DNA of 64,000 nucleotides, taken from positions 62,001 to 126,000 of the forward strand of contig NZ_LGHS01000072.1 of assembly GCF_001202025.1 (NCBI RefSeq), written 5' to 3'. A program made the position numbers and the translations under genes. Shown in pieces: positions 7,473 through 62,502 of this stretch; the first letter of the stretch is position 1, and the number at the start of each line of letters is the position of its first letter. The notes beneath the pieces are model-generated. The model worked only from the letters and a program-made list of their open reading frames with translations, was not told the DNA's origin and made no database searches. Source of the stretch: Pseudorhodobacter aquimaris. GTDB taxonomy: Bacteria > Pseudomonadota > Alphaproteobacteria > Rhodobacterales > Rhodobacteraceae.

Positions 7473-7542
7473 CCGATTGCGCACGGGGTCGCATTTGGCG
7501 TATTCGGCCCTATACTTGGCACAGGCAAAAAAGGAGATACGG

Positions 7543-7971
7543 ATGTCGATCAAATATCTACACACGATGGTTCGCGTATTGGATCTGGAAAAAACCATGG
7601 CATTCTTCAACCTGCTCGGGCTGGAAGAAACCCGTCGGGTGGACAATGAAAAAGGGCGCTTTAGCCTGGTTTTCATGGCCCCTCCAGGCCAGCCGGAATG
7701 CCCCGTGGAACTGACTTATAACTGGGATGGCGATGACGCCTTGCCATCCGACAGCCGCCATTTCGGCCATCTGGCCTATGAGGTGGAAGATATCTATGCG
7801 ACCTGCGCCCATCTGGCGGCCAATGGTGTGGTGATTAATCGCCCGCCCCGCGACGGGCATATGGCCTTTGTGCGCAGCCCCGACAACATCTCTATCGAGC
7901 TGTTGCAAAAGGGTGAATCGCTGGCCCCGGCAGAACCTTGGGCGAGTGCGGAAAACATCGGGCACTGGTAA
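7543..7971 (+). CDS. gloA: VOC-family lactoylglutathione lyase (glyoxalase I)
   Basis: Glyoxalase I isomerises the methylglyoxal-glutathione hemithioacetal to lactoylglutathione. The 142-residue protein has a duplicated VOC fold: YLHTMVRVLDLEKTMAFFNLLG with the first metal-ligand His (residue 6), VELTYNWD, then FGHLAYEVEDIYA, and FVRSPDNISIELLQKG with the last metal-binding Glu. An AAGGAGA ribosome site at 7531-7537 fixes the ATG at 7543. It is 70 bp after the corrected end of the Slam gene and convergent with hisN. Confidence 0.9.
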   Translation: MSIKYLHTMVRVLDLEKTMAFFNLLGLEETRRVDNEKGRFSLVFMAPPGQPECPVELTYNWDGDDALPSDSRHFGHLAYEVEDIYATCAHLAANGVVINRPPRDGHMAFVRSPDNISIELLQKGESLAPAEPWASAENIGHW

Positions 7972-7979
7972 CGGACCGT

Positions 7980-8010
7980 CGGGCATCGGGTTTGTCAGAT
8001 CCGGTGCCCG
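7980..8010. terminator. bidirectional hairpin between convergent gloA and hisN
   Basis: CGGGCATCGG (7980-7989) pairs with CCGGTGCCCG (8001-8010) with one wobble, forming a 10-bp stem with an 11-nt loop in the 45-bp gap between two convergent genes. There is no T-tract, so terminator function is inferred from placement. Confidence 0.5.
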
Positions 8011-8016
8011 AACAAG

Positions 8017-8811
8017 TCAAGCGTTCAGATAGGCCATCGCCGCCGCGTGGATTTCGGGATTGGCCGCTGCCAGAACCTGCCCCCCTTGGCACGCCGACCC
8101 ACCCTGCCAATTGGTTACAACACCGCCTGCCGCCTCGATCACCGCGATCGGGGCCTGAACGTCATAGGTCTGCAACCCCGCTTCGATCACCAGATCAACC
8201 TGCCCCGCAGCCAAAAGCGCATAGCCGTAACAATCCATCCCATAGCGCACCAGACGCACCTGCCCTGCCACGCGGCGAAAGGCTTCACCCTCGGCGTCAT
8301 CCCCAACTTCTGGGAAGGTCGAAAGCAAGATCGCCTGCGACAGATCGGGCGTCGAACGGGTCCGCAGCACCGACGCCCCCATCGGGCCATTGACCAAGGC
8401 CCGCCCAAAGCCGCCCTCGAACCGTTCCTGGATATAGGGTTGGTCAATCAGCCCGTAAATCGGGCCATTCCCATCGGCGACCGAGATCAGAACCCCCCAA
8501 GTTGGTGTGCCGGACAAAAACCCGCGCGTGCCGTCAATGGGATCCAGCACCCAAGTCAAACCAGAGACCCCCGGTTTAAGGCCAAACTCCTCGCCCAGAA
8601 TAGCGTCGTCAGGGCGGCGGCGCGCCAGAATATCACGCATTGCGATTTCTGACTCACGATCCGCAATGGTGACCGGGTCAAAATGCGTTGCCTCTTTGGT
8701 ATCCGCCGTCAACCCTGGCTTGCGAAAATGCGCCAAAGTGGCGACCCGCGCTGCATCGGCCAAAGCCGCTGCGGTATGCCGGATATCTTCAACTTCGCTC
8801 TGTGTCAGCAT
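8017..8811 (-). CDS. hisN: histidinol-phosphatase, inositol-monophosphatase family
   Basis: HisN-type enzymes dephosphorylate histidinol phosphate in histidine synthesis. The 264-residue protein has the family metal-site motifs: GEEF (residues 73-76), DPIDGTRGF (90-98), and YDVQAPIAVIEAAGG near the C-terminus. The stretch AGQVDLVIEAGLQTYDV is typical of the HisN branch rather than SuhB. No other his gene is adjacent, so the exact substrate is inferred from family resemblance. It could be a more general phosphatase. Confidence 0.85.
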   Translation of the reverse strand: MLTQSEVEDIRHTAAALADAARVATLAHFRKPGLTADTKEATHFDPVTIADRESEIAMRDILARRRPDDAILGEEFGLKPGVSGLTWVLDPIDGTRGFLSGTPTWGVLISVADGNGPIYGLIDQPYIQERFEGGFGRALVNGPMGASVLRTRSTPDLSQAILLSTFPEVGDDAEGEAFRRVAGQVRLVRYGMDCYGYALLAAGQVDLVIEAGLQTYDVQAPIAVIEAAGGVVTNWQGGSACQGGQVLAAANPEIHAAAMAYLNA

Positions 8812-30169: not shown

Positions 30170-30246
30170 GCCGCCTTAGCTCAGTTGGTTAGAGCGCTTG
30201 ATTGTGGATCAAGAGGTCCCCCGTTCGAGCCGGGGAGGTGGTACCA
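30170..30246 (+). tRNA. tRNA-His (GTG)
   Basis: A full cloverleaf is present: acceptor GCCGCCT (30170-30176) pairing with AGGTGGT, D-arm from TAGCTCAG, anticodon stem CTTGA/TCAAG with loop TTGTGGA and anticodon GTG at 30204-30206, T-arm CCCCG-TTCGAGC-CGGGG, and an encoded CCA (30244-30246). The base before G1 is T, the discriminator is A73 and position 72 is U. This lacks the G-1:C73 pair of most bacteria and matches the divergent alphaproteobacterial tRNA-His type. Confidence 0.96.
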
Positions 30247-30399
30247 TTACCCTTTATTTACAGATCAAAAACCGCTTTCAAGCGATTGCGCCTTGCTGAT
30301 TCTGCGCAGGCGGGCTTTGGCCACCTTTGGCCGAAAACACCTTGGCCCCGGACCTTGTCAGGTCTATGGTTCCGGCTTGCCAAACAGGAACCAAAGAAT

Positions 30400-32724
30400 A
30401 TGACCCCTGATCTTGCCGCCCGTCTCAACCGCCTTATTGCCAGCGAAATCAACGCCACCCCCGGGCAGGTCGCCTCTGCCGTGGAGCTGTTGGACGGCGG
30501 GGCCACCGTGCCATTTGTCGCCCGCTACCGCAAAGAGGTGACGGGGGGGCTGGATGATACCCAGCTACGCAACCTGTCCGAACGGCTGTCCTATCTGCGT
30601 GAAATGGAGGCGCGGCGCGCAACGATTCTGGCCTCGATCAAGGATCAGGGCAAGCTGACCGATGATCTGACCGCCAGCCTGACCAAGGCCACCACCAAGG
30701 CCGAGCTGGAAGATATTTACCTGCCCTACAAGCCCAAGCGCCGCACCCGCGCGATGATTGCCCGCGAAAACGGTCTTGGCCCGCTGGCCGAGGCTATCTT
30801 GGCCGATCGCAATGCCGATCCCCAAACGCTTGCCACTGCCTATGTCAATGACAAGGTCGCCGATACCAAAGCCGCCCTTGAAGGTGCGCGCGACATCATC
30901 GCCGAGGGGCTGGCCGAGAATGCCACGCTTTTGGGCAAGCTGCGCAACCATATGAAATCCGTGGGCCGTCTGGTCGCCACCGTCGTTGCCGACAAAGAGG
31001 CCGAAGGCGCCAAGTTTTCCGATTACTTCGCCCATTCGGAGCCGTGGCATTCCGCCCCCTCACACCGCGTTTTGGCGATGCTGCGCGGCCGCAACGAGGG
31101 GTTTCTGACCTTGGACCTTGAGGTGGACCCGGACGCCCCGCGCGGCCAATCCCCCTGTGAGGCGACCTGCGGTGCGGCGTTGCAGGCCGCAGGCCAAGTC
31201 AAGGGGGATATCTGGCTGCGCGAGGTCGCGGCCTGGGCATGGCGGATCAAGATCAAGACCTCGCTGACGCTGGATCTGATGGGCGATCTGCGTGACCGTG
31301 CCGAGGCCGAGGCGATCCGCGTCTTTGCCCGCAACCTCAAGGATCTTCTGCTGGCGGCCCCTGCGGGGGGGCGTGCCACGATGGGGCTTGATCCGGGGAT
31401 ACGGACGGGGGTGAAAGTGGCCGTGGTCGATGCGACGGGCAAGCTCTTGGCCACCGATACTGTTTACCCGTTCCAGCCGAAAAACGAGCTGCGCGCCGCA
31501 CAGGTGACAATCGCGCAACTGATCGGCAAGCATGGTGTGGGCCTCATTGCCATCGGCAATGGCACCGCCAGCCGCGAGACCGAAAAGATGGTCGCCGATA
31601 TGCTGAACGTGCTGCCCGCCACAGTGAAAAAACCAACCAAGGTAATTGTCTCCGAGGCAGGCGCGTCGGTCTATTCCGCATCGGAACTGGCCGCGCGCGA
31701 ATTTCCCGATCTGGATGTGTCCCTGCGCGGGGCGGTTTCCATCGCCCGCCGTCTCCAAGACCCGCTGGCCGAACTGGTCAAGATCGAGCCCAAAGCCATC
31801 GGCGTCGGCCAGTATCAGCATGACGTGGACCAGCACCGCCTTGGCCGCTCGCTTGAGGCCGTGGTCGAGGATGCCGTGAACGCGGTAGGGGTTGACCTGA
31901 ACACCGCCTCGGCCCCGCTTTTGGCGCGGGTGTCGGGTGTCGGGCCGGGGCTGGCCGATGCGATCGTTGCCCACCGCGATGCCAATGGCCCCTTTGCCAA
32001 ACGCCGCGACCTGTTGAAAGTTGCGCGCCTTGGGCCAAAAGCCTTTGAACAGGCGGCGGGGTTCTTGCGTATTTCAGGCGGGGCGGAACCGCTTGATGCC
32101 TCATCGGTCCACCCCGAGGCCTATGACGTGGCGCGCAAGATCGTTGCCGCCTGTGGCCGCGATCTGCGCGAGGTGATGGGATCACCGAAACTGGCTCAGC
32201 TTGACCCGATGCATTTTGTCGATGACCGCTTTGGCCTGCCCACCATCAAGGATATTCTGGCCGAGCTGGAAAAACCCGGCCGCGACCCGCGGCCCGAGTT
32301 CAAGACCGCAAGCTTTGCCGAGGGCGTCGATGACATCAAAGACCTCAAACCCGGCATGATGCTGGAAGGCACGGTAACCAATGTCGCGGCCTTCGGGGCC
32401 TTTGTCGATATAGGTGTGCATCAGGACGGGCTGGTGCATGTCAGCCAGCTTGCCGATAAATTCGTGTCCGACCCGCATGAGGTGGTAAAGGCCGGTGATG
32501 TGGTCAAGGTGCGGGTGGTTGAGGTGGATGTGCCACGCAAGCGTATCGGGCTGACCATGAAGAAAGACAGCGGCGAGGCCCGCGAAAAAGCCGCCGAACG
32601 AGGCAAACGCCCCACAGGCGGCCCGCAAAAAGCCCCGCCCAAAGCCGCGCAAATGCAATCAGCGCCCAAGGCGACAACGGCAAATCCTTTTGCCGATGCG
32701 CTACGCGGCAAGTTCGGAAAATGA
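30400..32724 (+). CDS. tex: Tex family transcription accessory / RNA-binding protein
   Basis: Tex is a cytoplasmic nucleic-acid-binding protein linked to transcription. The 774-residue protein shows the whole Tex order: helical N-terminal domain ([19 protein letters not shown]), YqgF-like RNase-H fold ([18 protein letters not shown]), the [20 protein letters not shown] motif, helix-hairpin-helix pairs ([20 protein letters not shown]) and a C-terminal S1 domain ([20 protein letters not shown]). A Lys/Ala-rich tail follows. The start at 30400 has AGGA upstream; a longer frame that begins inside the tRNA is rejected. Confidence 0.95.
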
Positions 32725-32726
32725 CG

Positions 32727-33623
32727 CTACCGGGCGGCGGGCTTATGCCGGGCCAGCCGCCCCAGACCCCGCGCGCCGCCGTGGCGCGCCACCGCAGCAC
32801 TTGCGGTATACGCCCCCGCATCCAGACAATCCGCCAGCCCTGCGCCAAAAAGCCAGCGGTCCAGAAAGCCTGCGTTGAAGGCGTCCCCCGCCCCCACGGT
32901 ATCAACCACCTCGGTGATATAGGCGGGACGGTGGATCGACCCTTTGGCCGAAAAAGCCCGCGCACCGGCGGCCCCCTCCTTGACCACAACCAAGGGGGCC
33001 AGGTGTTCGTAGCCCGCCAGCATATCCGCCTCGGCGCGATTTGGGAAAAAGACGTCAATGCCCTGCATGATCGCCGCCAGACCATCACGGGCCAGAACCT
33101 CCGCATCCCATGAACAATCCAGCGAAATCGTCATCCCCGCCGCCTTGGCCCGCGCAATCACCTGCGGGCTTTCGACAAGGCTTGCCAGCTCACCTATATG
33201 CAGATGATCCCATGCGCCGCTGTCAATGGCGGCACCCAAAGTGTCGGGAAAGGCGGGCCCTGCACGGCGCGTGACAAAGGCGCGGTCGCCGCCCAGGATC
33301 ATTGCCACAGTGATCTGCGGGTCAACCCCCGGTGCGGCTAGGCTGCATGCGCCCAGATCAAGCCCCGCATTACCCAGTTCGGTTGCGATTGCGCCCGCGA
33401 AAGGTTCAGCGGGCAGAACCGCAGCCAGCCCCGCCGCACGCCCCAGCGCCGCAAGATAGGCCGCCGTGATATAGGCCCCGCCCCCCGCTGCCAACACAAG
33501 ACCGTTTGCATAAACCTCTTGGCCCGGCGCGGGCACGCAGGGCAGGCCCGACATCACGATGTCACAATAAAGTCTGCCTGTGCAAAGCACTCGCTTGCCC
33601 CATGATGCCGGTTGCGTGCTCAT
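32727..33623 (-). CDS. PfkB-family carbohydrate kinase
   Basis: The 298-residue ribokinase-fold protein has LAAGGGAYITAAYLAALG near the N-terminus and the PfkB signature 2 VVDTVGAGDAFNAGF with catalytic Asp. It is expected to phosphorylate a sugar or nucleoside with ATP. The start at 33623 overlaps the ABC ATPase stop by ATGA, so it is the last gene of the import operon. Its substrate is presumably the sugar part of the imported compound. It also ends 2 bp from the convergent tex stop. Ribokinase, KDG kinase and fructosamine-type kinases share these motifs and cannot be separated here. Confidence 0.87.
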   Translation of the reverse strand: MSTQPASWGKRVLCTGRLYCDIVMSGLPCVPAPGQEVYANGLVLAAGGGAYITAAYLAALGRAAGLAAVLPAEPFAGAIATELGNAGLDLGACSLAAPGVDPQITVAMILGGDRAFVTRRAGPAFPDTLGAAIDSGAWDHLHIGELASLVESPQVIARAKAAGMTISLDCSWDAEVLARDGLAAIMQGIDVFFPNRAEADMLAGYEHLAPLVVVKEGAAGARAFSAKGSIHRPAYITEVVDTVGAGDAFNAGFLDRWLFGAGLADCLDAGAYTASAAVARHGGARGLGRLARHKPAAR

Positions 33624-34663
33624 GTGATCGCCTCCCCATCCGCGCCGAAAAGATGCAGGTTCGCCGGATCGACCGTTAGCTGAACCACAGCCCCCAGCGC
33701 GGGCGGGTTGCGCCCATCGGCATGGGCGACCACCTCTTGCCCATCGATATCGACATAGACAAGCGTCTCGGACCCCAGCGGCTCCAGCAGGGTGATACGG
33801 CCCGAAAAACAGCCCTTGTCTTGTGTTACGCAAAGATCATCAGGGCGAATACCTACCGTCATTGCCCCCGTACGGCCGGTTTCACGCGCAATCATTGTGC
33901 CGCCCACCTCAAGGCCACCCGCCACCGCCCGGCCCGGCATCAGGTTCATCGAGGGCGCGCCGATGAATTGCGCCACAAAGATATTGGCAGGCTGGTGGAA
34001 CACCTCGGCGGGGGTGCCGATTTGCTGGATATGGCCATCCTTCATGATCACGATCCGGTCGGCCATCGTCATCGCCTCTACCTGATCATGGGTGACAAAG
34101 ATGATCGTGGTGCCGACCCTTTGGTGTAGCTTCTTTATCTCCAGCCGCATCTGACTGCGCAATTGGGCATCGAGGTTCGACAGCGGCTCATCAAAAAGGA
34201 ACACCGCCGGATCGCGCACCATCGCGCGCCCGATCGCCACCCGCTGACGTTGCCCGCCCGAAAGCTGGGCGGGCTTGCGGTCCAGATATTCGGTCATCGA
34301 CAGGATCGCCGCGACCTCTTCGATCCGCTGTTCCCGCTCGGGTTTGGACAGCGAGGAGGTCCGCAGGCCAAAGCCGATATTCTTGCGCACCGACATATGC
34401 GGATAGATCGCGTAATTCTGGAACACCATTGCGATGTCGCGGTCTTTGGGTTCCAGATGGTTGACGGTGCGCCCGCCGATCTGCACCTCGCCGCTGGTCA
34501 CATCCTCCAGCCCCGCGATGATCCGCAAGGTCGTGGATTTGCCGCATCCCGAAGGCCCGACAAAGACGACAAACTCGCCATCTGCCACCTCAAGGTTGAT
34601 GCCGTGCAAGACCTCTGCCTTGCCATACGCCTTGACCAGATTGTGCAGGGTAACTGTCGCCAT
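33620..34663 (-). CDS. carbohydrate ABC transporter ATP-binding protein (UgpC/MalK-like)
   Basis: The 347-residue ATPase has Walker [11 protein letters not shown], signature [16 protein letters not shown], Walker [17 protein letters not shown] and a C-terminal TOBE-type regulatory domain (MTVGIRPDDLCVTQ). It powers the two neighbouring MalF/MalG-type permeases. It is only 3 bp after the lyase stop and overlaps the kinase start, so the genes form one operon. Confidence 0.94.
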   Translation of the reverse strand: MATVTLHNLVKAYGKAEVLHGINLEVADGEFVVFVGPSGCGKSTTLRIIAGLEDVTSGEVQIGGRTVNHLEPKDRDIAMVFQNYAIYPHMSVRKNIGFGLRTSSLSKPEREQRIEEVAAILSMTEYLDRKPAQLSGGQRQRVAIGRAMVRDPAVFLFDEPLSNLDAQLRSQMRLEIKKLHQRVGTTIIFVTHDQVEAMTMADRIVIMKDGHIQQIGTPAEVFHQPANIFVAQFIGAPSMNLMPGRAVAGGLEVGGTMIARETGRTGAMTVGIRPDDLCVTQDKGCFSGRITLLEPLGSETLVYVDIDGQEVVAHADGRNPPALGAVVQLTVDPANLHLFGADGEAIT

Positions 34664-34666
34664 AGG

Positions 34667-36154
34667 TTACTCCTTCAACAAGGCATTGAAAGCGGCATCA
34701 AGGGCGGTTTGCGCATTGGTCACCCGCTCATGGCCCAGCCGGCCAATCTGACAGCATTCGGCCAGTTCATATTCATACTGCAAAAATGCCTCATCCAGCG
34801 CCGCAGGTGCCGGCCCACCAAAGCGGTCACGCCGCGCGATGAAACCTTGCACGCTGACCGCATCGGCAAAGCCCGCCGCATCCATCCCCGTCGCGCGCCC
34901 CAGCTGCGCGGTAAAGGCGGCGGTAAAGGGGGCAAACCCTTGGGCCAAAGGCACGCCGCGCGCAATCACGTCCCTTGCAGTTTCTGCGGCCACCTCATGC
35001 GCCTGACGAAAGCTGAGCCCCTCATCGCGCACCAAAGTATCGGCCAGCTCGGTCACAGTCACACAGGCCGCATCCATATTTGCCGCCACCCTATCGGCGC
35101 GGATCGAACAGGCCGGGATCAGCGCACGCATCAACGTCAGCACCCGCTCGGCGCTGGCAAAGGCGGCATAGCCTGCGACCTGCACCTCTCCCTCGCTGTC
35201 ATTCATATCCGTAAAGGGCGTGTTATGCATGGTGTTGACCACCGCATCACAGCGCCCCACCGTCATGCTGGCCAGATGGCGCAAATGCTCTATCGGGACC
35301 GGATTGCGCTTTTGCGGCATGATCGAGGATATCTGCACCATCGAGTTCGGGACATAAAGCTGACCGACCTCAAAGGCGCTCCAGAATTGCATATCCTGAA
35401 TGACGCGACCAAGGTGCAAGAACACCAGCTTTATCGCGGAATAAAGCCCCGTCACGTAATCCACACTGGCGATACAGCCATAAGAATTGCGCAAAGGGGC
35501 GGAAAACCCCAAAAGATCCGCCATACGGTGCCGGTTGACCGCAAAGCCCGAGGTGGTGATCGCCGCCGCCCCCATCGGGCAATGGTCAAGCACCTCGCGG
35601 GCATCACACAACCGCTGGCCATCGCGGATCAACACCTCGATCACAGCGGCAAGGTAGTGACCATAGGTGGTGGGCTGGGCCGGCTGCCCGTGGGTATAGG
35701 CCACAATCGGAGTATCGCGTTCTCGCCGCGCCGTCGCAACCAATGCCAACGCCAGGTCCATGGTTTGTGTCAGTAAACCCTTGGCCTTTTCACGCAAAAC
35801 CATTTTAAAAACCGTATGATCCATGTCGTTGCGCGACCGCGCCGTATGCAATGCCCCCGCCACATCCGGGCCAAGACGGCGTTTCAGCTCTGCCTCGACC
35901 AAAAAGAAATAATCCTCATATTCGCCGATATATTCCAGTGTGGACAGATCAACCCCGGCATCGATATCCACCAGCGCGCGGGCAATTTTACCGGCCACAT
36001 CCCGCGCCAAAATACCCTCTTCGGCCAGCATCACCAGATGGGCGCGGTTGATTGCACGCACGCTTGGGGCATAGTAATGCTTGGCGGCGTCAAACAGGGG
36101 GGTCAGCACCGTATCGCGGTAAGCTGGATCGGGAAATTTTGTTGTGTCGGTCAT
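34667..36154 (-). CDS. argininosuccinate-lyase-like enzyme of unknown substrate
   Basis: The 495-residue protein belongs to the aspartase/fumarase superfamily. It has TARSRNDMDHTV (105-116), THGQPAQPTT (154-163) and the catalytic flexible loop SSIMPQKRNPVP (276-287, Ser277). Superfamily enzymes release fumarate from N- or O-succinyl compounds. The 154-163 motif differs from the HxQRAQP pattern expected in true ArgH, and the gene sits inside a sugar importer operon rather than with arginine genes. I infer a catabolic lyase acting on an aspartate conjugate. EDDS lyase is a precedent for an ArgH relative with another substrate. It overlaps the MalG-like permease by 4 bp. Confidence 0.8.
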   Translation of the reverse strand: MTDTTKFPDPAYRDTVLTPLFDAAKHYYAPSVRAINRAHLVMLAEEGILARDVAGKIARALVDIDAGVDLSTLEYIGEYEDYFFLVEAELKRRLGPDVAGALHTARSRNDMDHTVFKMVLREKAKGLLTQTMDLALALVATARRERDTPIVAYTHGQPAQPTTYGHYLAAVIEVLIRDGQRLCDAREVLDHCPMGAAAITTSGFAVNRHRMADLLGFSAPLRNSYGCIASVDYVTGLYSAIKLVFLHLGRVIQDMQFWSAFEVGQLYVPNSMVQISSIMPQKRNPVPIEHLRHLASMTVGRCDAVVNTMHNTPFTDMNDSEGEVQVAGYAAFASAERVLTLMRALIPACSIRADRVAANMDAACVTVTELADTLVRDEGLSFRQAHEVAAETARDVIARGVPLAQGFAPFTAAFTAQLGRATGMDAAGFADAVSVQGFIARRDRFGGPAPAALDEAFLQYEYELAECCQIGRLGHERVTNAQTALDAAFNALLKE

Positions 36155-37017
36155 CCTTTAAGCCCCGCCATGGCAACACCGCGAATGATGTAGCGTTGAA
36201 AGATTAGAAATACGATCAGCGTCGGGATCGTGGCAAGTGCTGCACCCGTCATGATCAACTCCCACTCCACCGCTTGTTCCACGCTAAAGGTGGTAAGGCC
36301 CACAGGCAGCGTGTAAAGTTCCTGGCTGTTGGTCACGATCAGCGGCCAAAGGAACGCGGTCCAATTGCCCAGAAATACGAATATCGCCAAGGCACTCAGC
36401 GCAGGCGCCACCAAAGGCAGGGCCACCGACCACCAGATCTGGAACTCGTTCAGCCCGTCAATCCGCGCCGCCTCCAGAAAGTCATCGGGCACTGTTTCAA
36501 AGAACTGTTTCATCAGGAATGTGCCAAAGGCCGTCATGACGCCGGGGAACATGATCCCCCAGTAACTATCCAGCCAGCCAAGGCTTTTTGACATCAGATA
36601 CCACGGGATCACCAGCATTTCCGTGGGGATCATCAGTGTCGACAGGATGGCGATGAACACGAATGTCCGCCCGCGAAAGGTGAACTTGCACAGCGCATAG
36701 CCCACCAATGCATCGAAAAATACCGCCGAGATCGTCGTCAGCGTGGCGATCAGCAGCGAGTTCCCGAACCAGCGCAAAAACCGCCCGTCCGACAGAACAT
36801 AGGTGTAATTCTCAAACGTCGGCTCGGTCGGGATGATGTTGAGGTCGTACATCTCGAACGGATATTTGATCGAGGCCGAGAGCATATAGACAATCGGCAT
36901 CACCATCACAATCGCGCCCATCGCCAGCAAGGTCCAGCGCAGCACGGCATAGGGATCACGCGGGCCTTTGGCGGGCTTGCGCATCAGGCTTTGGGAACTG
37001 ACCCTGATCTCGCTCAT
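36151..37017 (-). CDS. carbohydrate ABC transporter permease (MalG-like)
   Basis: The 288-residue inner-membrane subunit has an N-terminal helix (LLAMGAIVMVMPIVYML), the permease core and the coupling-loop motif FLEAARIDGLNEFQIWWSVALPL. It is followed by the C-terminal ...RYIIRGVAMAGLKG typical of CUT1 permeases. It overlaps both neighbours by 4 bp, so stoichiometric translation is likely. Confidence 0.94.
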   Translation of the reverse strand: MSEIRVSSQSLMRKPAKGPRDPYAVLRWTLLAMGAIVMVMPIVYMLSASIKYPFEMYDLNIIPTEPTFENYTYVLSDGRFLRWFGNSLLIATLTTISAVFFDALVGYALCKFTFRGRTFVFIAILSTLMIPTEMLVIPWYLMSKSLGWLDSYWGIMFPGVMTAFGTFLMKQFFETVPDDFLEAARIDGLNEFQIWWSVALPLVAPALSALAIFVFLGNWTAFLWPLIVTNSQELYTLPVGLTTFSVEQAVEWELIMTGAALATIPTLIVFLIFQRYIIRGVAMAGLKG

Positions 37018-37910
37018 GGTTTGTCCCTCAGTATACGAAGCTGGGCAAGGCTGACGACCAGCAATATCGCGAAGAGCACCACAGTTTGCGCGGCGGCATA
37101 GCCCATATCAAAGCTGGAAAACGCGGTTTGATAGATCATCAGGACCAGCGGCTTGGTGCTGTCCAATGGTCCGCCGGGGTTATTGGTGGTCATATTGAAC
37201 ACCTGATCGAATATCCGCAAAAAGCCGATCGAGGAAAAGACCACCAGAAACACGATTGTAGGTTTCAGCAGTGGCAAGGTGATCTCGGACATGATCGTCC
37301 AGCCCGAAACGCCGTCAATCCGCGCCGCCTCATAGTAACTTGTAGGAATGGCGCGCAGACCGGCCATAAAGATGATGATCTGGAACCCGAGGCCCGCCCA
37401 GATTGCAGGCAGCAAGATCGCAGGCAGCGCATTGGTGGTGGAGTTCAGGAAATTAACCTGCGCAAAGCCCAATGACGCCAGAAAATTGTTGAAAAGCCCG
37501 ATGGGCACCGGCTGATAGAACCACCGCCAGACCCATGCCATCGCCACGGTAGAGGTCAGGAACGGCAGGAAATAAAGCGCGCGCAAGGTGCCATGCAGCA
37601 GACGGGTTTTATCAAGCTGATAGGCGATCACAAAGCTTAGCACCAATGAGATCGGCGTGCCGAGGATCAGATAGACAAAGGTGTTGCGAAACACCTTCCA
37701 GAACACCGGATCATGCCAGAGCTTGATGTAATTCTCGGCCCCGACCCATTCGCGCGGGCCCAAAAGGTTCCAGCTTTGAAAGCTGAGGATGATCGCGTTC
37801 AGCGTCGGGTAAAAGCGGATGACCGAGTAAAACAGGATCGGCACAGCCAAAAAGGCCCATGCCCAGACCACCTGTTTTTGGCGGATCGAAAGGTTGCGGT
37901 AAAATGACAT
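37014..37910 (-). CDS. carbohydrate ABC transporter permease (MalF-like)
   Basis: The 298-residue protein starts MSFYRNLSIRQKQVVWAWAF and has six predicted helices with the coupling loop YYEAARIDGVSGWTIMSEITLPLL. It pairs with the MalG-like subunit. The start at 37910 was preferred to 37931 because it gives the standard short cytoplasmic N-terminus. A 54-bp gap separates it from the binding-protein gene, which is typical for extra expression of the latter. Confidence 0.93.
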   Translation of the reverse strand: MSFYRNLSIRQKQVVWAWAFLAVPILFYSVIRFYPTLNAIILSFQSWNLLGPREWVGAENYIKLWHDPVFWKVFRNTFVYLILGTPISLVLSFVIAYQLDKTRLLHGTLRALYFLPFLTSTVAMAWVWRWFYQPVPIGLFNNFLASLGFAQVNFLNSTTNALPAILLPAIWAGLGFQIIIFMAGLRAIPTSYYEAARIDGVSGWTIMSEITLPLLKPTIVFLVVFSSIGFLRIFDQVFNMTTNNPGGPLDSTKPLVLMIYQTAFSSFDMGYAAAQTVVLFAILLVVSLAQLRILRDKP

Positions 37911-37964
37911 GATGGCTCCCAAGCCCCGCAAGGTGCGGCGCAGTTGCCCGCGCCGCGCCAGTGT

Positions 37965-39221
37965 TTACTTATTGTAATAGCCGTCCAGAATGGCCTGTTC
38001 CGCCTTGGCTGCAGCGGCCAAGGCATCCTCGGCCGATTGCCCCTCAAGGAACATCCGGCTTACGGCATCCACAAGCACCTGACGTTGACCGGATTCGTCA
38101 ACGAAGACAGTTGTTTGCGCGTATCCAAGCCCCGCCACAAACGGCCCGAACACCGGATCGGCAAGGTTCGCCTCGGTCATCGCCGCGGATGGTTTCGCAG
38201 GCAATTCGCCAACCGTATCCAGCCAGATCTGCATCGCCTCATCGCTGGTGATATATTCCATGAATTTGACCGAAGCCTCGAATTTCTCACCCTCGGCCTT
38301 GGAGGTGATCGCATTCACCCAATAGCTGGCATAGTTGGACTTGCTGCCATCCGGCCCCGCAGGCAACTCCGCCACGCCCCAATCAAGACCGCGGGTATCC
38401 TTTAGCGCGCCGATACGGAAAGAGCCGTCAATATGCATCGCGGCCCGGCCTGCCTTGAAGGCGGCTTGCGGCTCATCCATGAAGGTAGAGCTGGTTACAC
38501 CGTGTTTTTGCTCCAGATCGGTATAAAACTTCAGCGCGGCCACGCCGGCGGCATCATTATAGGTTACGGTTTTATTGTCATCCGAATAAGGCACGCCGCC
38601 GAACTGGCGCAACAGCACTTCGCGCAGCCAATGGTGATCCTGCGCCGTCATACCAGAGGTAAAGCCCTCAGCCGTGATATTGCCCGCCCCGTCTTTTTGG
38701 GTCATCGCGGCGGCCATTTCCACCAGCTCATCCAGATTGGCGGGCGGGGCCTCAAAGCCTGCGTTCTTGAACATCCGCTTGTTATAGAACAACGCAAGCG
38801 AGCGCACCGCCGTCGGCAGCGCCATATAGGCACCGTCGATCTTCATCGCGCGCACCATCGGAAAGAAATCCGCCTCGATCTGTTCAACCGGGAAACGGTC
38901 CTCGGGCAGCGGCTGGATCAGATCCGCCTCGACGTAATCATTCAGCCAGCCGTAAAACAACTGCACCACATCCGGCCCCTCGCCTGCGGGAATGGCGGCG
39001 GCAACCTTGGTACGGTAATCGGCATAGGGAAAGGTGCTTTGCTTGACGGTGATACCGGGGTTGGCGACCTCAAAATTCTCGATCAACTGATCCATCGCGG
39101 TGACACGGGCATCAAAAATATACTGCCAATATTCAATTTCTACCGCCCAGGCGGGACCAGAGGCCACCAGCGCCGCAAGGCTTGTCGCCGCAGCACAGGT
39201 CAGTGTCTTGAAGGTTTTCAT
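37965..39221 (-). CDS. carbohydrate ABC transporter substrate-binding protein
   Basis: The 418-residue periplasmic protein has a Sec signal peptide (MKTFKTLTCAAATSLAALVASGPAWA, cleaved before VEIEYWQY). The SBP_bac_1 body includes NPGITVKQSTFPYADYRTKV, IPAGEGPDVVQLFYGW and ALPTAVRSLALFYNKRMFKNAG. Three ATGs stand in a row at 39227-39219; the GGGAG site fits the second or third best. It is the promoter-proximal gene of the operon, 155 bp from the divergent ROK regulator. Family 1 binders recognise mono- and oligosaccharides or derivatives such as glycerophosphodiesters. Confidence 0.92.
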   Translation of the reverse strand: MKTFKTLTCAAATSLAALVASGPAWAVEIEYWQYIFDARVTAMDQLIENFEVANPGITVKQSTFPYADYRTKVAAAIPAGEGPDVVQLFYGWLNDYVEADLIQPLPEDRFPVEQIEADFFPMVRAMKIDGAYMALPTAVRSLALFYNKRMFKNAGFEAPPANLDELVEMAAAMTQKDGAGNITAEGFTSGMTAQDHHWLREVLLRQFGGVPYSDDNKTVTYNDAAGVAALKFYTDLEQKHGVTSSTFMDEPQAAFKAGRAAMHIDGSFRIGALKDTRGLDWGVAELPAGPDGSKSNYASYWVNAITSKAEGEKFEASVKFMEYITSDEAMQIWLDTVGELPAKPSAAMTEANLADPVFGPFVAGLGYAQTTVFVDESGQRQVLVDAVSRMFLEGQSAEDALAAAAKAEQAILDGYYNK

Positions 39222-39344
39222 CATCATACTCTCCCATATGCGGCCCCGATCAGGCCCAAATTCTAGCTTATGTTTTTATGGGGGGCCGCCAAGATTGCGG
39301 CCCCTATACGCAACTGTTGACGCCTTCCCTGCAAAGATCAATAC

Positions 39345-39367
39345 TTTATTCAAACGTTTTGAATAAA
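39345..39367. promoter_or_regulatory. perfect 10+3+10 palindrome, probable operator of the ROK regulator
   Basis: TTTATTCAAA (39345-39354), spacer CGT, and TTTGAATAAA (39358-39367) form an exact inverted repeat in the intergenic region between the importer operon (minus) and the ROK gene (plus). The right arm touches the AAAGG ribosome site of the ROK gene. Length and symmetry fit a dimeric winged-helix repressor. Binding by the adjacent ROK protein is inferred. Confidence 0.75.
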
Positions 39368-39376
39368 GGTTGCCCC

Positions 39377-40606
39377 TTGCCCCACAGCCTCCATCACATC
39401 GCGGGAAACAACGCCGAAAAGACAAAGGCGCACAATCGCCGTGTCATTCTGGGGCATTTGCAAGGCCGGGACGCGGGGCGCGCGGAAATCGCCAAGGCCT
39501 CGGGGCTGTCGACCCAGACCGTATCAAACCTGATGGCCGAACTGGAGGAAGAGGGGCTTGTCCACCGCCAAGGCCGCAGGCCCGCCGCGCGCGGGGCGCC
39601 GCCGCTGCTCTATGCCTTCAACCCTTCGGGGGCTGCGGCCCTCGGGTTCGAAGTCCGCCCCGATATTTTGACAATGGTGCTGACCGATATTGGCGGCACG
39701 GCGCGGCTGACCCGCCAGATGCGTCTGACCCGGTGCGACCCTGCGCATGTCTTGGAACTGATGGCGCAAATGGCCAAGGAGGCACAGGCCGAGCGGCCCC
39801 GCATTCTTGGTGCCGGTCTTGTCATCCCCGGCCCCTTTGGTGTTGAGGGGCTAAGTGCTGCGGGGGCCACCACCCTGCCCGGCTGGGAGCCGAAACAGAT
39901 CCCCGCCATGGCCGCCGAAGCCCTTGGCATGCCCGTTCATCTGGACAAGGACGCCACGGCCGCGGCCCTTGCCGAGGGGATGGGCGGCGCAGCGCAGGGG
40001 CTTTCGAGCTATGCGTTTTTGTATTTCGGATCGGGGCTGGGGTTGGGGATCATATCGCAAGGCCAGCCCCTGCGCGGCGGTTTCGGCAATGCAGGAGAAC
40101 TGGGTCATGTCATCATCACCCCCGGCGGCCTGCCCTGCGATTGCGGCAATCGCGGCTGTCTGGAGCAATACGTCAGCCGTCTTTCGCTGCAACGCCATCT
40201 GGTTGCAACGGGCCTTCTGGCCCCACATACGCGCGGCACCGATGCGACAGTCACCGCCCTGCTTGCCGCAAATGACCCTACGCTGACAGAATGGATCATC
40301 ACAGCGGCCGAGGCGCTTTCGCGCGCGATCGGCATGCTGGAAAACCTGTTTGATCCGCAAAGCATCATCCTTGGCGGTGCCTTGCCCGATGCACTTCTGG
40401 ATGCGCTCATCGCCCATTTATCCCTGCCCGAGGGCTCTGTCTCGCGGCGCGCGGATCGCAACAGGCCGCGGGTCATGCGCGGCACCTCTGGCAGGCAAAG
40501 CGCCGCAATGGGGGCCGCAGCCCTTGTGATCCATGATACCGTCACCCCGCGCCTTGATGCCCACCGCGCGCTGCCCACCGAAATGAAAGATGCCCCATGC
40601 CCCTGA
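39377..40606 (+). CDS. ROK-family transcriptional regulator
   Basis: The 409-residue protein has an N-terminal winged helix (GRAEIAKASGLSTQTVSNLMAELEEEGLVHRQGRRP). The ROK body includes FYFGSG-like nucleotide-binding FLYFGSGLGLGIISQGQ, GELGHVIITPGG and the zinc motif CDCGNRGCLEQYVS. ROK repressors release DNA when they bind a sugar or sugar phosphate. The TTG start at 39377 is chosen because AAAGG lies 7 bp upstream and it avoids a shadow extension. It is divergent from the importer operon and overlaps the PIG-L gene by 10 bp. Confidence 0.88.
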   Translation: MPHSLHHIAGNNAEKTKAHNRRVILGHLQGRDAGRAEIAKASGLSTQTVSNLMAELEEEGLVHRQGRRPAARGAPPLLYAFNPSGAAALGFEVRPDILTMVLTDIGGTARLTRQMRLTRCDPAHVLELMAQMAKEAQAERPRILGAGLVIPGPFGVEGLSAAGATTLPGWEPKQIPAMAAEALGMPVHLDKDATAAALAEGMGGAAQGLSSYAFLYFGSGLGLGIISQGQPLRGGFGNAGELGHVIITPGGLPCDCGNRGCLEQYVSRLSLQRHLVATGLLAPHTRGTDATVTALLAANDPTLTEWIITAAEALSRAIGMLENLFDPQSIILGGALPDALLDALIAHLSLPEGSVSRRADRNRPRVMRGTSGRQSAAMGAAALVIHDTVTPRLDAHRALPTEMKDAPCP

Positions 40607-42927
40607 CCGATGCCGCCCGTATTGCCGCCCAAACCACCCAGCCCGCAGCCATGATGCTCTGGCGGGCGCTGCAACCCCTGCGCGGGCTGGCGCGGTTCAT
40701 GAACTCCGGCGCCCATCCCGATGATGAGATTAGCACGATGCTGGCCGCCCTCACTTACCGCGACGGGCTGTCGCTGTCTTATGTCTGTTCCACCCGTGGC
40801 GAGGGCGGGCAGAATGACATCGGCCGCGAGGCAGGGGCCGATCTGGGCACACTGCGCACCGCCGAGATGCATGCCGCCGCCGATATCCTCGGGCTGTCGA
40901 TGTATTGGCTGTCCGACAGTCCCGATGATCCGATCGTTGATTTCGGCTTTTCAAAATCAGGCATCGAGACCCTTGGCAAATGGGGCCACGCCCATACCCT
41001 GCGGCGGCTGGTAGAGGTCATCCGCAAGGACCGGCCCGATATCCTTTGCCCGACCTTCCTCGATATCCCCGGCCAGCATGGCCACCACCGTGCCATGACC
41101 CAAGCCGCCCATGAGGCAATGACCGCCGCCGCCGATCCGGATTTCAGTGCGGAGGGCGCGCCCTGGCAGGTCGCCAAGCTGTATCTGCCCGCATGGTCCG
41201 GCGCGGGGGATGCCTATGATGACGATCTGCCGCCGCCCCCCGCCACCGTCCATATTCCCGGTGCAGGGCGGGAACCGGTATCCGGCTGGACATGGGCCGA
41301 AATCGGCCAGCACTCCCGCGTGTTTCATGCCACCCAAGGCATGGGCCGTTGGACCGATGGCAAGGAACCGCAGGGCTGGTCGCTGCATCTGGCGCAAAGC
41401 CATGTCGGGGCGGACCGCTCCGCGATCACCGACAACCTGCCGCAGAGCTATGCCGAATTGCTGGACGGTCATCCGCGCGCCCAAACATTGGACGGCGCGC
41501 TTGCGGCCTGTATCGCCGCCTTTCCCGATACCGCACAGATTTTGCACCACGGGTTTGACGCGCTCGGCCATCTGCGCGCCTTGCGCGATACCTGCCCCGA
41601 AGAGGCGCGTGACCAGACGCTCCACCGGCTGGACCGGACCGAGGCCCAGCTGGCGCGGGTGCTTTGGCTGGCCTCGGGGGCGCGGTTGACGGCGCGGCTG
41701 GACCGCCTCCATGCCCGCCCCGGCGAACATATCGCGGCGGGGCTGACGCTCCAGCCCGCCAGCGAGGCCTGTGAGGTCACGGCCGAATGGCACCTGCCGG
41801 AGGGCTGGCTGGCCGATGCGAACGGCATCACCCTTGCCAAGGATGCACAGCCCTTTGACCCCTATCCGATGATCCATCACGCCCATGCCCCGCAAGGGCC
41901 GGTGGCCGCCACCATCACCCTGCGCAAGGACGAAACCTCTGTCCAGCTTTTGCACCCCATCGGCGCGCAGGTGCTGGTCCTGCCCAACACCGAAGCCGGG
42001 GTAGAACCGCAAACGGCTTTCCTCAACATCGCCGCGCCGCAGCCCATTGCCCTGCGCCTGAGCGACGGTGCCACGCTGACGCCACCCGATGGCCGGACGC
42101 TTGAGACATCTGCCAATGAGACGGTGCTACTGCCCGAAACCCCGAAAGAGGGGCTGTATACTCTGCCGCTAAAGGTCGCGGGCCAGCCTGCCCAGACAGT
42201 GACCCGTATCAACCATCCCCATACCGGCGCGCTGATACGCAGCGCCCCCGCGGCCCTGCGTTTGCGCGTGGCGGATGTGGCGTTGGCCCCCGCGCGCATC
42301 GCCTATATCGGGGGCGGCAATGACCGCGTGGATCACTGGCTGCGCGCAATGGGGGCCGATGTCACGACCCTTTCGGATACGGATATGAGCCCCAGCATAC
42401 TTGTCGGTTTCGACACGCTGGTGATCGGGATCTTTGCCATGCGGTTTCGCCCCGGCCTGCCCGCCTTGATGCCTGCGGTGCATGACTGGGTGGTCAAGGG
42501 CGGTACGCTCCTGACGCTTTATCACCGCCCATGGGATAATTGGACCGAGGCCACCGCGCCCCGCCCGCTAGAGATCGGCAAGCCCAGCCTTCGCTACCGC
42601 GTCACCGATGAAAATGCCGCCGTCACCCATCTGGTCCCTGATCATCCGCTGCTCAACGCCCCCAACCGGATCGGCCCCCAAGATTGGGAAGGGTGGGTCA
42701 AGGAACGCGGGCTCTATTTTGCCAAAAACTGGGACGATGCCTATCAGCCCCTGCTGGAGATGGCGGATGAGGGCGAGACCCCGCATCAAGGCGCGTTGCT
42801 GTCGGCGCGGATCGGTGAAGGGCAACACCACCACTGCGCGCTGATCTTGCATCTGCAAATGGAGGCGCTGGTTCCCGGTGCGTTCCGCTTGATGGCCAAT
42901 CTGACGGCACCGCCAGAATGGCCATAA
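40597..42927 (+). CDS. large PIG-L-family deacetylase with C-terminal amidotransferase-like domain
   Basis: The 776-residue protein has an N-terminal LmbE/PIG-L zinc deacetylase domain with AHPDDE at residues 39-44 and GQHGHH at 159-164. A middle region of beta-rich character (about 360-560) follows, then a C-terminal segment with YIGGGNDRVDHWLRAMGADV and FDTLVIGIFAMRF that resembles a class-I amidotransferase/ThuA-like fold. No signal peptide is seen, so it is probably cytoplasmic. PIG-L enzymes remove acetyl groups from N-acetylamino sugars and their conjugates (MshB, BshB). It is translationally coupled to the ROK repressor and probably acts on the compound imported by the divergent ABC system. 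Confidence 0.83.
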   Translation: MPLTDAARIAAQTTQPAAMMLWRALQPLRGLARFMNSGAHPDDEISTMLAALTYRDGLSLSYVCSTRGEGGQNDIGREAGADLGTLRTAEMHAAADILGLSMYWLSDSPDDPIVDFGFSKSGIETLGKWGHAHTLRRLVEVIRKDRPDILCPTFLDIPGQHGHHRAMTQAAHEAMTAAADPDFSAEGAPWQVAKLYLPAWSGAGDAYDDDLPPPPATVHIPGAGREPVSGWTWAEIGQHSRVFHATQGMGRWTDGKEPQGWSLHLAQSHVGADRSAITDNLPQSYAELLDGHPRAQTLDGALAACIAAFPDTAQILHHGFDALGHLRALRDTCPEEARDQTLHRLDRTEAQLARVLWLASGARLTARLDRLHARPGEHIAAGLTLQPASEACEVTAEWHLPEGWLADANGITLAKDAQPFDPYPMIHHAHAPQGPVAATITLRKDETSVQLLHPIGAQVLVLPNTEAGVEPQTAFLNIAAPQPIALRLSDGATLTPPDGRTLETSANETVLLPETPKEGLYTLPLKVAGQPAQTVTRINHPHTGALIRSAPAALRLRVADVALAPARIAYIGGGNDRVDHWLRAMGADVTTLSDTDMSPSILVGFDTLVIGIFAMRFRPGLPALMPAVHDWVVKGGTLLTLYHRPWDNWTEATAPRPLEIGKPSLRYRVTDENAAVTHLVPDHPLLNAPNRIGPQDWEGWVKERGLYFAKNWDDAYQPLLEMADEGETPHQGALLSARIGEGQHHHCALILHLQMEALVPGAFRLMANLTAPPEWP

Positions 42928-62425: not shown

Positions 62426-62502
62426 CGGGCTATGGCGCAGCATGGTAGCGCGTCCGTCTGGGGGACGGAAGGTCGTGAGTTCGAATCTCGCTAGCCCGAC
62501 CA
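62426..62502 (+). tRNA. tRNA-Pro (GGG)
   Basis: A full cloverleaf: acceptor CGGGCTA paired with TAGCCCG, anticodon stem TCCGT/ACGGA with loop CTGGGGG and anticodon GGG at 62460-62462, T-arm TTCGAAT, and encoded CCA at the 3' end. It is followed by a strong terminator. Confidence 0.96.

Follow-up and report, generated by a model that had tools for sequence, protein, structure and literature searches.

Catabolism of N-acetylglucosamine (GlcNAc) and glucosamine (NagC, NagK, NagA, NagB/NagB-II) uses a ROK repressor, a sugar kinase and either NagB or NagB-II, unrelated families that both act on glucosamine-6-phosphate; the gene module analysed here has these elements in common with it, and carries in addition a fumarate-type lyase and a large PIG-L protein ahead of the kinase. 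Fructoselysine and fructose-asparagine utilisation follow a comparable kinase and sugar-amino acid logic, but no deglycase was seen in the module, which has the lyase and PIG-L instead. EDDS lyase (Chelativorans BNC1; 6g3d-6g3i) and argininosuccinate lyase share fold and fumarate-side residues with the module lyase, and all ArgH-group enzymes known to us cleave C-N bonds. For PIG-L, passages of a review of work to 2014 describe LmbE/PIG-L enzymes as acting on N-acylglucosamine cores, and BshB on GlcNAc-malate (PMC4101496), while bacillithiol is given as Cys-GlcN-malate, and Bca as a BshB-type amidase, in a section of PMC4360819. Bacillithiol is described as widespread, with an N-methyl form in Polaribacter MED152, and together with its derivatives was proposed to represent the most widespread low-molecular-weight thiols of bacteria (passages of PMC6282198).

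The window (the whole 64,000-nucleotide stretch analysed) holds the module as eight genes in two divergent units. The minus-strand unit comprises a sugar-type solute-binding protein (SBP; 37965..39227; PF13416/PF01547), a MalF/UgpA-type CUT1 sugar ABC permease with ATG start (37014..37910; PF00528), a MalG/UgpE-type CUT1 permease (36151..37017; PF00528; NF008210 at 136 bits, below the cut-off of 297), an ArgH/EDDS-lyase-like lyase proposed to release fumarate from a glucosaminyl conjugate (34667..36154; PF00206 and PF14698), a MalK/UgpC-type importer ATPase (33620..34663; NF008653 at 492 bits, cut-off 432), and a PfkB-family sugar kinase, proposed to act on glucosamine (32727..33623; PF00294, 2.4e-29), for which the ATG at 33623 was used as start, giving 298 aa, and not a longer TTG open reading frame. 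The plus-strand unit comprises a ROK-family repressor with a winged-helix N-terminus (39377..40606; PF00480, 4.4e-42; MarR_2/HTH; presumed TTG start) and a large PIG-L/LmbE metallohydrolase of 776 aa (40597..42927; PF02585, 8.7e-19, residues 38-174). Overlaps occur at four junctions, namely ATPase/PfkB (4 nt, with the PfkB ATG overlapping the ATPase stop), lyase/permease (36151-36154), permease/permease (37014-37017) and ROK/PIG-L (10 nt); gaps of 3 nt and 54 nt separate ATPase from lyase and SBP from the first permease. All eight open reading frames were recovered at the positions given by an earlier, sequence-only reading, with family names consistent with Pfam and NCBIfam. An Rfam scan returned two tRNAs and nothing else.

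Homologous regions (20 kb) were found through one permease in 59 further genomes of the host's family, and the gene set also recurs in 53 named loci. The lyase was present in 59/59 regions, PIG-L in 58/59, ROK in 50/59 and PfkB in 40/59, so that the co-occurrence named as a test by the sequence-only reading was observed, and the overlapping divergent units with a single palindrome proved conserved. The lyase is the most constant module enzyme, present even where PIG-L is missing. Among alphaproteobacterial plasmids, the 27 records with an SBP at ≥51% identity were the same 27 that carried a lyase at ≥53%; the large PIG-L was found in 21 of these, with no match in 6. On several plasmids the lyase gene is annotated argH. 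In Deinococcota, sampled through plasmids only, rearranged versions were found that combine ROK, lyase, PIG-L and PfkB with an importer belonging to the same family (identities of 46% for the SBP and of 45% and 53% for the permeases), and these point to a functional module; no PIG-L was seen in the module region of D. psychrotolerans, D. aetherius or KNUC1210. For whole-genome counts, 394 family genomes were taken as one sample across scans, since identifiers agree, and presence figures are minimum values derived from the best 6, 5 or 2 candidates per genome.

The palindrome, CTTTATTCAAACGTTTTGAATAAAG (39344..39368), is a 25-base inverted repeat and a putative operator, placed between the divergent units as one site for both. 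Its core, TCAA-N3..7-TTGA, was found in 37/50 homologous intergenic stretches of clusters with ROK, or in 40/50 once each stretch was extended by 60 bases into the matched end of the divergent gene, and in 0/8 clusters without a matched ROK (one of the 59 regions, which has neither ROK nor PIG-L, was left out); 50 random stretches of equal length contained it in a mean of 0.77 (maximum 5) or 1.02 (maximum 4), a contrast somewhat flattered since the pattern was picked after inspecting palindromes from the same regions. Nine of the ten misses in the extended count are regions L156-L160, L162-L164 and L166, where a ROK-type kinase is common. At the level of sequence, operator and ROK gene are coupled. 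The ROK protein scores as NagC/Mlc-like in NCBIfam, under cut-offs.

The lyase belongs to the ASL group of the aspartase/fumarase superfamily, with fold and catalytic Ser, Lys, Asn and Thr-His present. In structure comparison the best matches to its model were EDDS lyase and ASL (Z 36), the first 17 lying at Z 35.2-36.4 and rmsd 2.6-3.0 over 441-463 residues; the model is poor precisely at loop 313-318. Fumarate-side residues are retained (R108, N109, T154, H155, S276, S277, K282, N284), whereas the leaving-group side is altered and invariant (V286, N311, D316, N318, D319). The arginine-side sequences of true ArgH (QKKNPD, TYSKDMQEDK) are absent, the module lyase reading QKRNPV and NTPFTDMND, and the signature QKRNPV plus N-x-P-F-x-D-x-N-D was invariant in the 111 lyases covering it; the loop differs from that of EDDS lyase and argininosuccinate lyase. 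Identity to EDDS lyase is 28% over the structure alignment, and EDDS lyase D290 and Y320, located near substrate in passages of PMC12363623, correspond to V286 and M317. On TIGR00838 the lyase scored 282.2 bits, slightly over the cut-off of 279.5, which together with the argH annotations could suggest that it serves arginine metabolism as an additional argininosuccinate lyase; we consider this close to untenable, given a separate ArgH of 590 bits on another contig, the changed leaving-group residues and the location of the lyase gene in a sugar-importer operon. A D. wulumuqiensis homologue, at 276.5 bits, lies under the same cut-off. Arginine metabolism was rejected as the lyase's role on the genome's own ArgH and the differing signature, and the comparison supports an ArgH-fold paralogue distinct from the genome's ArgH, as the sequence-only reading had supposed.

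The large PIG-L protein combines an LmbE domain, an Ig-like middle and a ThuA-like C-terminal part, with fold matches to 1uan, MshB (1q74) and ThuA-like 1t0b (E 4e-5 to 1e-4). Since its model has pLDDT < 50 at residues 65-107, within the catalytic domain, it was used for the order of parts only. The Pfam domain scored 68.7 bits (cut-off 28.2), and the motifs GAHPDDE (containing the HPDD metal motif) and GQHGHHRA were invariant among 10 aligned homologues. The HPDD-bearing PIG-L/LmbE domain is shared with BshB1/BshB2 (Bca) and MshB/Mca, and NCBIfam matches of the window and Deinococcus proteins fall in the BshB/Bca/MshB/Mca group, except for one anchor domain. In contrast to those enzymes, module PIG-L scores under all curated cut-offs (BshB1, 23 bits vs 182.5 for the window protein), carries the extra Ig-like and ThuA-like parts within its 776 aa, differs in second-motif residues, and sits in a catabolic-type operon of a genome without BshC. 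In our reading of the homologue alignment against passages of PMC4101496, BshB Arg109 and Asp112 correspond to Q160 and H163, so that recognition by module PIG-L would differ from that by BshB. In D. ficus the large PIG-L has the look of a secreted protein and contains CBM9 and NEW3 domains, features that would be compatible with a polymer or an envelope component as substrate, too.

The importer is a complete CUT1 system, with MalK-type ATPase, two permeases and sugar SBP. The nearest solved relative of the SBP is the acarbose/maltose binder GacH (E 8e-30); solved-structure searches led from the SBP to general sugar binders and from PfkB to sugar kinases, matches that do not fix the ligand. 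With diacetylchitobiose deacetylase as the nearest solved sequence to PIG-L (E 3e-4), and with NagB in some clusters, an ordinary GlcNAc- or chitooligosaccharide-type uptake operon could be envisaged, with PIG-L as the sugar deacetylase and the lyase serving unrelated arginine or aspartate chemistry. This is very unlikely in our judgement, the lyase being present in every region, within the importer operon and retained without PIG-L, with an invariant signature and a separate ArgH elsewhere.

Glucosamine-6-phosphate deaminases have been recruited into 18/59 regions (NagB-II in 12, NagB in 6), 41/59 having none. The nearest module gene was PfkB for 11/12 NagB-II genes (9 on the same strand) and a ROK kinase for 4/6 NagB genes. 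For module genomes, 11/42 NagB-II genes and 6/19 NagB genes lay inside the 20-kb regions, against ~0.21 and ~0.095 expected; these expectations assume a genome size of 4 Mb and a region length of 20 kb, which some regions do not reach. At least 52/60 module genomes had a deaminase, compared with at least 95/334 others (Fisher p 1.2e-17), an enrichment that may partly reflect lifestyle or relatedness; NagB-II was present in at least 41 module genomes and NagB in at least 15, with the same sets in both scans. Among the matches listed, 8/60 module genomes had no deaminase at the thresholds used (NagB-II, E ≤ 1e-55), one of which (L143) has an incomplete copy inside the cluster, at the end of a contig, that this threshold missed. 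In-cluster nagB scored 242 bits in Paroceanicella (cut-off 236.9) and 251 in Loktanella; an internal TAA interrupts one of the in-cluster NagB matches (G403). The host's own NagB-II scored 294 bits, under the cut-off of 430, which was reached by 0/394 sampled family genomes among the matches listed; its gene overlaps that of NagA (256 bits, cut-off 225.65) on another contig, and no NagB was found in the host genome. From this recruitment and the excess of deaminases in module genomes, glucosamine is most likely the released sugar. The kinase is PfkB in 40/59 regions, replaced by a ROK-type kinase in 8 and without a kinase match in 11, and its displacement by the ROK-type kinase is our sole reason for proposing PfkB to be a glucosamine kinase; its best family scores, ribose-1-phosphate kinase and fructoselysine 6-kinase, are far under cut-off.

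The sequence-only reading had also offered an Amadori-type conjugate, and catabolism of fructosyl-aspartate, glycosyl-aspartate or another glycated amino acid would fit the PfkB score on the fructoselysine 6-kinase model (51 bits, cut-off 247) and a distinct ArgH-like lyase of Rhodobacter capsulatus, encoded on a plasmid together with a CUT1 importer and an FrlB-like SIS protein (80.6 bits, cut-off 430). That lyase lacks the module signature, however, and both in-cluster SIS proteins scanned are NagB-II-like (313 bits in Roseomonas, cut-off 430, vs 27 for fructoselysine-6-phosphate deglycase, FrlB; 278 vs 35 in the second). As NagB was recruited too, and PIG-L would be left without a role, the Amadori route was judged improbable. 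An N-linked glucosamine-aspartate, for example N-(2-deoxyglucos-2-yl)aspartate, which is the Heyns product formed from fructose and aspartate, or a naturally occurring N-(1,2-dicarboxyethyl)glucosamine, would be split at C-N into fumarate and glucosamine, in agreement with the deaminases, with the C-N lyase fold and catalytic residues, and with EDDS lyase, which forms N-substituted L-aspartates from many amines (passages of PMC12363623). PIG-L in 58/59 regions suggests instead an N-acyl group, not normally found on an N-alkylated amino sugar, which makes such a substrate rather unlikely. We know of no abundant natural source of it.

Genome context gives good support to a catabolic pathway in general, and an amino sugar, probably N-acylated and joined to a group that leaves as fumarate, survives from the sequence-only reading along with the catabolic module and its non-ArgH lyase; that reading had not considered that the C4 acid might be malate, an option that brings in bacillithiol as a candidate. 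Natural compounds combining N-acylglucosamine with such a leaving group lead to bacillithiol or the GlcN(Ac)-malate core. Our working proposal, to which we give nearly even chances, is a scavenging route whose substrate is a C4 dicarboxylic acid carrying an N-acylglucosaminyl group, likeliest bacillithiol, its derivatives or GlcN(Ac)-malate from other bacteria. The conjugate would be taken up by the CUT1 importer, its N-acyl group (cysteinyl or acetyl) removed by PIG-L, and its malyl (or succinyl) part eliminated as fumarate by the lyase, leaving glucosamine; PfkB, or the ROK kinase in some relatives, would form glucosamine-6-phosphate, which NagB-II would convert to fructose-6-phosphate and ammonia, and the ROK protein would repress both units via the common palindrome. 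The substrate and all of the reactions are our inference, and this applies most strongly to malate as the acid and to the lyase cutting a C-O bond; to our knowledge, glycosyl-O-malate cleavage by an ArgH-group enzyme is without precedent, and the cluster has no gene specific for thiol or malate, which counts against bacillithiol. Scavenging is favoured over synthesis since BshC had no match in the host genome, with controls positive in B. subtilis, Thermus composti and Deinobacterium. BshA gave weak partial matches only (best 76.9 vs 273.7 bits), and biosynthesis in the host was rejected.

A literature search found no description related to the gene set, as judged by abstract, and no route consuming the glucosamine-malate core in titles, abstract openings and some passages. 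It is possible, with doubt outweighing confidence, that the module represents the first pathway for breaking down bacillithiol-type thiols, with organisms that do not make them scavenging GlcN-malate glycosides and with the glycosyl-O-malate bond cut through fumarate elimination by an enzyme of ArgH fold. If so, a glycoside would be opened without a glycosidase, the module (marine, soil and plasmid-borne) would supply a route for consuming the glucosamine-malate core, and genes now annotated argH but not encoding ArgH would be re-assigned.

An EamA/DMT exporter gene, absent from the window after PIG-L and from the sequence-only reading, is present in more than half of the relatives (33/59 regions, 29/53 named loci), where it could serve to remove cysteine or a cysteine conjugate.

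The eight-gene module (window positions 32727-42927) consists of two divergent units flanking a 149-base intergenic stretch, a length that uses the inferred ROK start: a minus-strand unit encoding the substrate-binding protein (SBP), two permeases, lyase, ATPase and PfkB, and a plus-strand unit encoding ROK and PIG-L. Family scans returned the same families that the sequence-only reading had named for the eight genes. The start of PfkB was corrected to ATG 33623, overlapping the ATPase stop, and that of the first permease to ATG 37910, and we infer a ROK start at TTG 39377. On a P. turbinis replicon, the SBP and lyase are 96% and 88% identical to the window proteins. Two tRNA genes lie in the window (30170-30243 and 62426-62499), the first overlapping the TTG start of the long ORF listed on the plus strand at 30202-32724, which looks Tex-like by eye and whose real start probably lies further downstream than that TTG.

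Named genomes were scanned with the lyase, producing 53 loci, some cut by contig ends, with both permeases in 53/53, SBP and ATPase in 51/53, PIG-L in 49/53, ROK in 48/53, PfkB in 33/53, EamA in 29/53 and NagB-II in 5/53. So that neither the lyase nor PIG-L served as the anchor, 394 family genomes (393 genera) were searched with one of the permeases (E <= 1e-90), and 60 matched, the window among them. The other 59 regions, a few of them shortened by contig ends, carried the lyase (59/59), PIG-L (58/59) and ROK (50/59), an outcome in favour of the sequence-only reading on the co-occurrence check that it had proposed; PfkB was present in 40/59, EamA in 33/59 and a ROK-type kinase in 8/59, with no kinase match in 11/59. 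Ten of the 53 named loci (e.g. L023, 12571-13197; Marivita is among the ten) gave a match to a gene that by eye resembles a glutathione S-transferase; in the loci inspected it follows the ATPase, at the position that PfkB takes elsewhere. At the ROK position of the Bosea (L074, 7640-8773) and Shinella (L075, 7634-8713) regions lies a divergent gene annotated as "substrate-binding domain-containing protein", by size and place a candidate LacI-type regulator; no PIG-L or sugar kinase is among the annotations of these two regions.

The palindrome that had been noticed between the divergent units (core TCAA-N3..7-TTGA) recurs in relatives. With the pattern fixed after inspection of these same regions, the core was found in 37/50 ROK-bearing clusters (40/50 with 60 more bases included), in 0/8 clusters where no ROK matched, and in about 1/50 random stretches, which links ROK to the site. 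Most of the ROK-bearing clusters that lack the core come from regions in which the ROK-type kinase is frequent.

Against the ArgH model, the lyase scored 282 bits and the separate ArgH of the same genome 590 bits. Among solved sequences it is closest to Thermus ArgH and the EDDS lyase of Chelativorans BNC1, and its predicted model matches the latter (6g3e; Z 36.4, 462 residues, rmsd 2.7) and duck delta-crystallin (Z 36.0) in a tie. Residues R108, N109, D110, T154 and H155 are invariant across 112 lyases (46-82% identity), as are S276, S277, K282, N284, V286, N311, D316, N318 and D319 in the 111 covering the later part; seven Deinococcus lyases carry these residues, with one T154S, and among the aligned plasmid alphaproteobacterial lyases that of Bosea has N318T. 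Positions 286, 311, 316, 318 and 319 are V, N, D, N and D in the module lyase but D, G, Y, K and D in the genome's own ArgH. The substrate-proximal residues described for EDDS lyase (R112, N113, Q159, N288, D290 and Y320; PMC12363623) align with R108, N109, H155, N284, V286 and M317, and therefore the fumarate side is retained and the leaving-group side is new. The acidic loop of the lyase would suit a cationic amino sugar. In an unrooted tree, the module lyases, including those of Deinococcus, stood apart from the ArgH of the window's genome and from the lyases of Haladaptatus, Cupriavidus and R. capsulatus (support 0.94). The Rhodobacter capsulatus SB 1003 plasmid pRCB133 (L174, 34-8479) encodes a different ArgH-like lyase (TIGR00838, 344 bits) without the module signature, beside two SIS proteins, one of them FrlB-like, a CUT1 importer and a kinase of the BadF type; this may be a further lyase-based route for amino sugars or Amadori compounds.

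The sugar product is probably glucosamine. A glucosamine-6-phosphate deaminase was present in the permease-anchored regions as NagB-II (12/59) or NagB (6/59), and absent from 41/59. PfkB is the module gene nearest NagB-II in 11/12, on the same strand in 9 (same-strand alignment gaps of 60-518 bases), and the ROK kinase is nearest NagB, on the same strand, in 4/6. The two deaminases share a function without being related as families, so that finding both of them recruited points to GlcN-6-P. In-region genes made up 11/42 for NagB-II and 6/19 for NagB, versus about 0.21 and 0.095 genes by chance. NagB scored over the cut-off in the Paroceanicella and Loktanella clusters, and NagB-II below it in that of Roseomonas; an in-cluster NagB match in G403 (C36:170280-171002) has one internal TAA. 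Genome-wide, at set thresholds, either deaminase occurred in 52/60 module genomes versus 95/334 others (Fisher p 1.2e-17), an excess that common lifestyle and ancestry may also feed. In the window's genome, NagB was not found, and a NagB-II (294 bits) overlaps NagA on another contig. The Amadori-type conjugate suggested earlier fares poorly: the two in-cluster SIS proteins scanned are no Amadori deglycases, scoring far higher with NagB-II than with FrlB (Roseomonas, 313 versus 27 bits; L113, 278 versus 35).

The PIG-L protein has 776 residues, with the Pfam PIG-L match confined to residues 38-174. Its predicted model (mean pLDDT 75, weak within the catalytic domain) gave partial-length matches to LmbE structures (1uan and MshB), to Ig-like repeats and to a ThuA-like protein. 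Across the phylum, the large form is scarce (5/398 sampled genomes at E <= 1e-10, all in the window's family, the window's genome included); there are also named matches in Rhizobium, Aminobacter, Thalassospira and Granulosicoccus. The G099 copy (C3:513529-515871) has one internal TGA and is decaying or mis-sequenced. In the Terrarubrum cluster (L063), without a large PIG-L, a metallo-beta-lactamase-fold gene (7196-8044) lies between the SBP and permeases and may replace it; Aminobacter has such a gene near its cluster too (L064, 1152-2030).

The lyase fold releases fumarate, and the L-malate (S) configuration is that of the L-aspartyl part in known substrates. C-O elimination is known within the superfamily from fumarase, although we know of none acting on a glycosyl malate. 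Bacillithiol makers export mercapturates. The substrates of LmbE enzymes, as reviewed to 2014, are N-acylglucosamine cores (PMC4101496), and bacillithiol (Cys-GlcN-malate) is described as made via GlcNAc-malate and then GlcN-malate, while Bca, an amidase of the BshB type, cuts its conjugates (PMC4360819). Bacillithiol is a natural compound joining N-acylglucosamine, glucosamine and fumarate-yielding parts, and the module would scavenge a conjugate of this type, releasing glucosamine and fumarate. BshC was not found in the window's genome, so the organism would scavenge such a substrate rather than make it; by analogy with the export of mercapturates, the EamA exporter of relatives might export cysteine or cysteine conjugates. 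Doubt comes from the second PIG-L motif, which is unlike that of BshB, and from the 41/59 regions with no deaminase, and none of the eight genes is a direct pointer to malate or to a thiol. Ordinary C-N cleavage of an N-linked glucosamine-aspartate would yield identical products, but the presence of PIG-L speaks against it. For the bacillithiol-like conjugate, no such breakdown pathway was found among top-ranked open-licence papers on bacillithiol/GlcN-malate or on the gene set.

Plasmids were searched with the SBP, and the best 60 records were taken, with 1319 further records behind them. Identity was at least 45% in 36 of these 60 (27 alphaproteobacterial, 9 Deinococcota), the next being 32%. 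The 27 are those with the lyase at >= 53% identity among the matches listed, and 21/27 carry the large PIG-L. Regions were inspected for all nine Deinococcota records, and the lyase lay within the cluster in 7/9. In D. wulumuqiensis, D. ficus and D. actinosclerus, the lyase, SBP and two permeases are joined by ROK, a PfkB-type kinase and both a large PIG-L-type protein and a small PIG-L; D. deserti has this set without the large PIG-L-type protein; nothing beyond lyase and importer is present in D. psychrotolerans, D. aetherius and KNUC1210; and Deinococcus AJ005 (L070) and Thermus oshimai (L069) have an SBP homologue at 47% with no lyase annotated in the region. The constant core of the module is importer and lyase, with variation in PIG-L, kinase, deaminase, regulator and exporter. 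The small Deinococcus PIG-L proteins (three scanned) scored 145-161 bits with the MshB model (cut-off 224). The large D. ficus PIG-L has a signal-like N-terminal stretch (by eye) and a CBM9, which could point to an extracellular or polymeric substrate.
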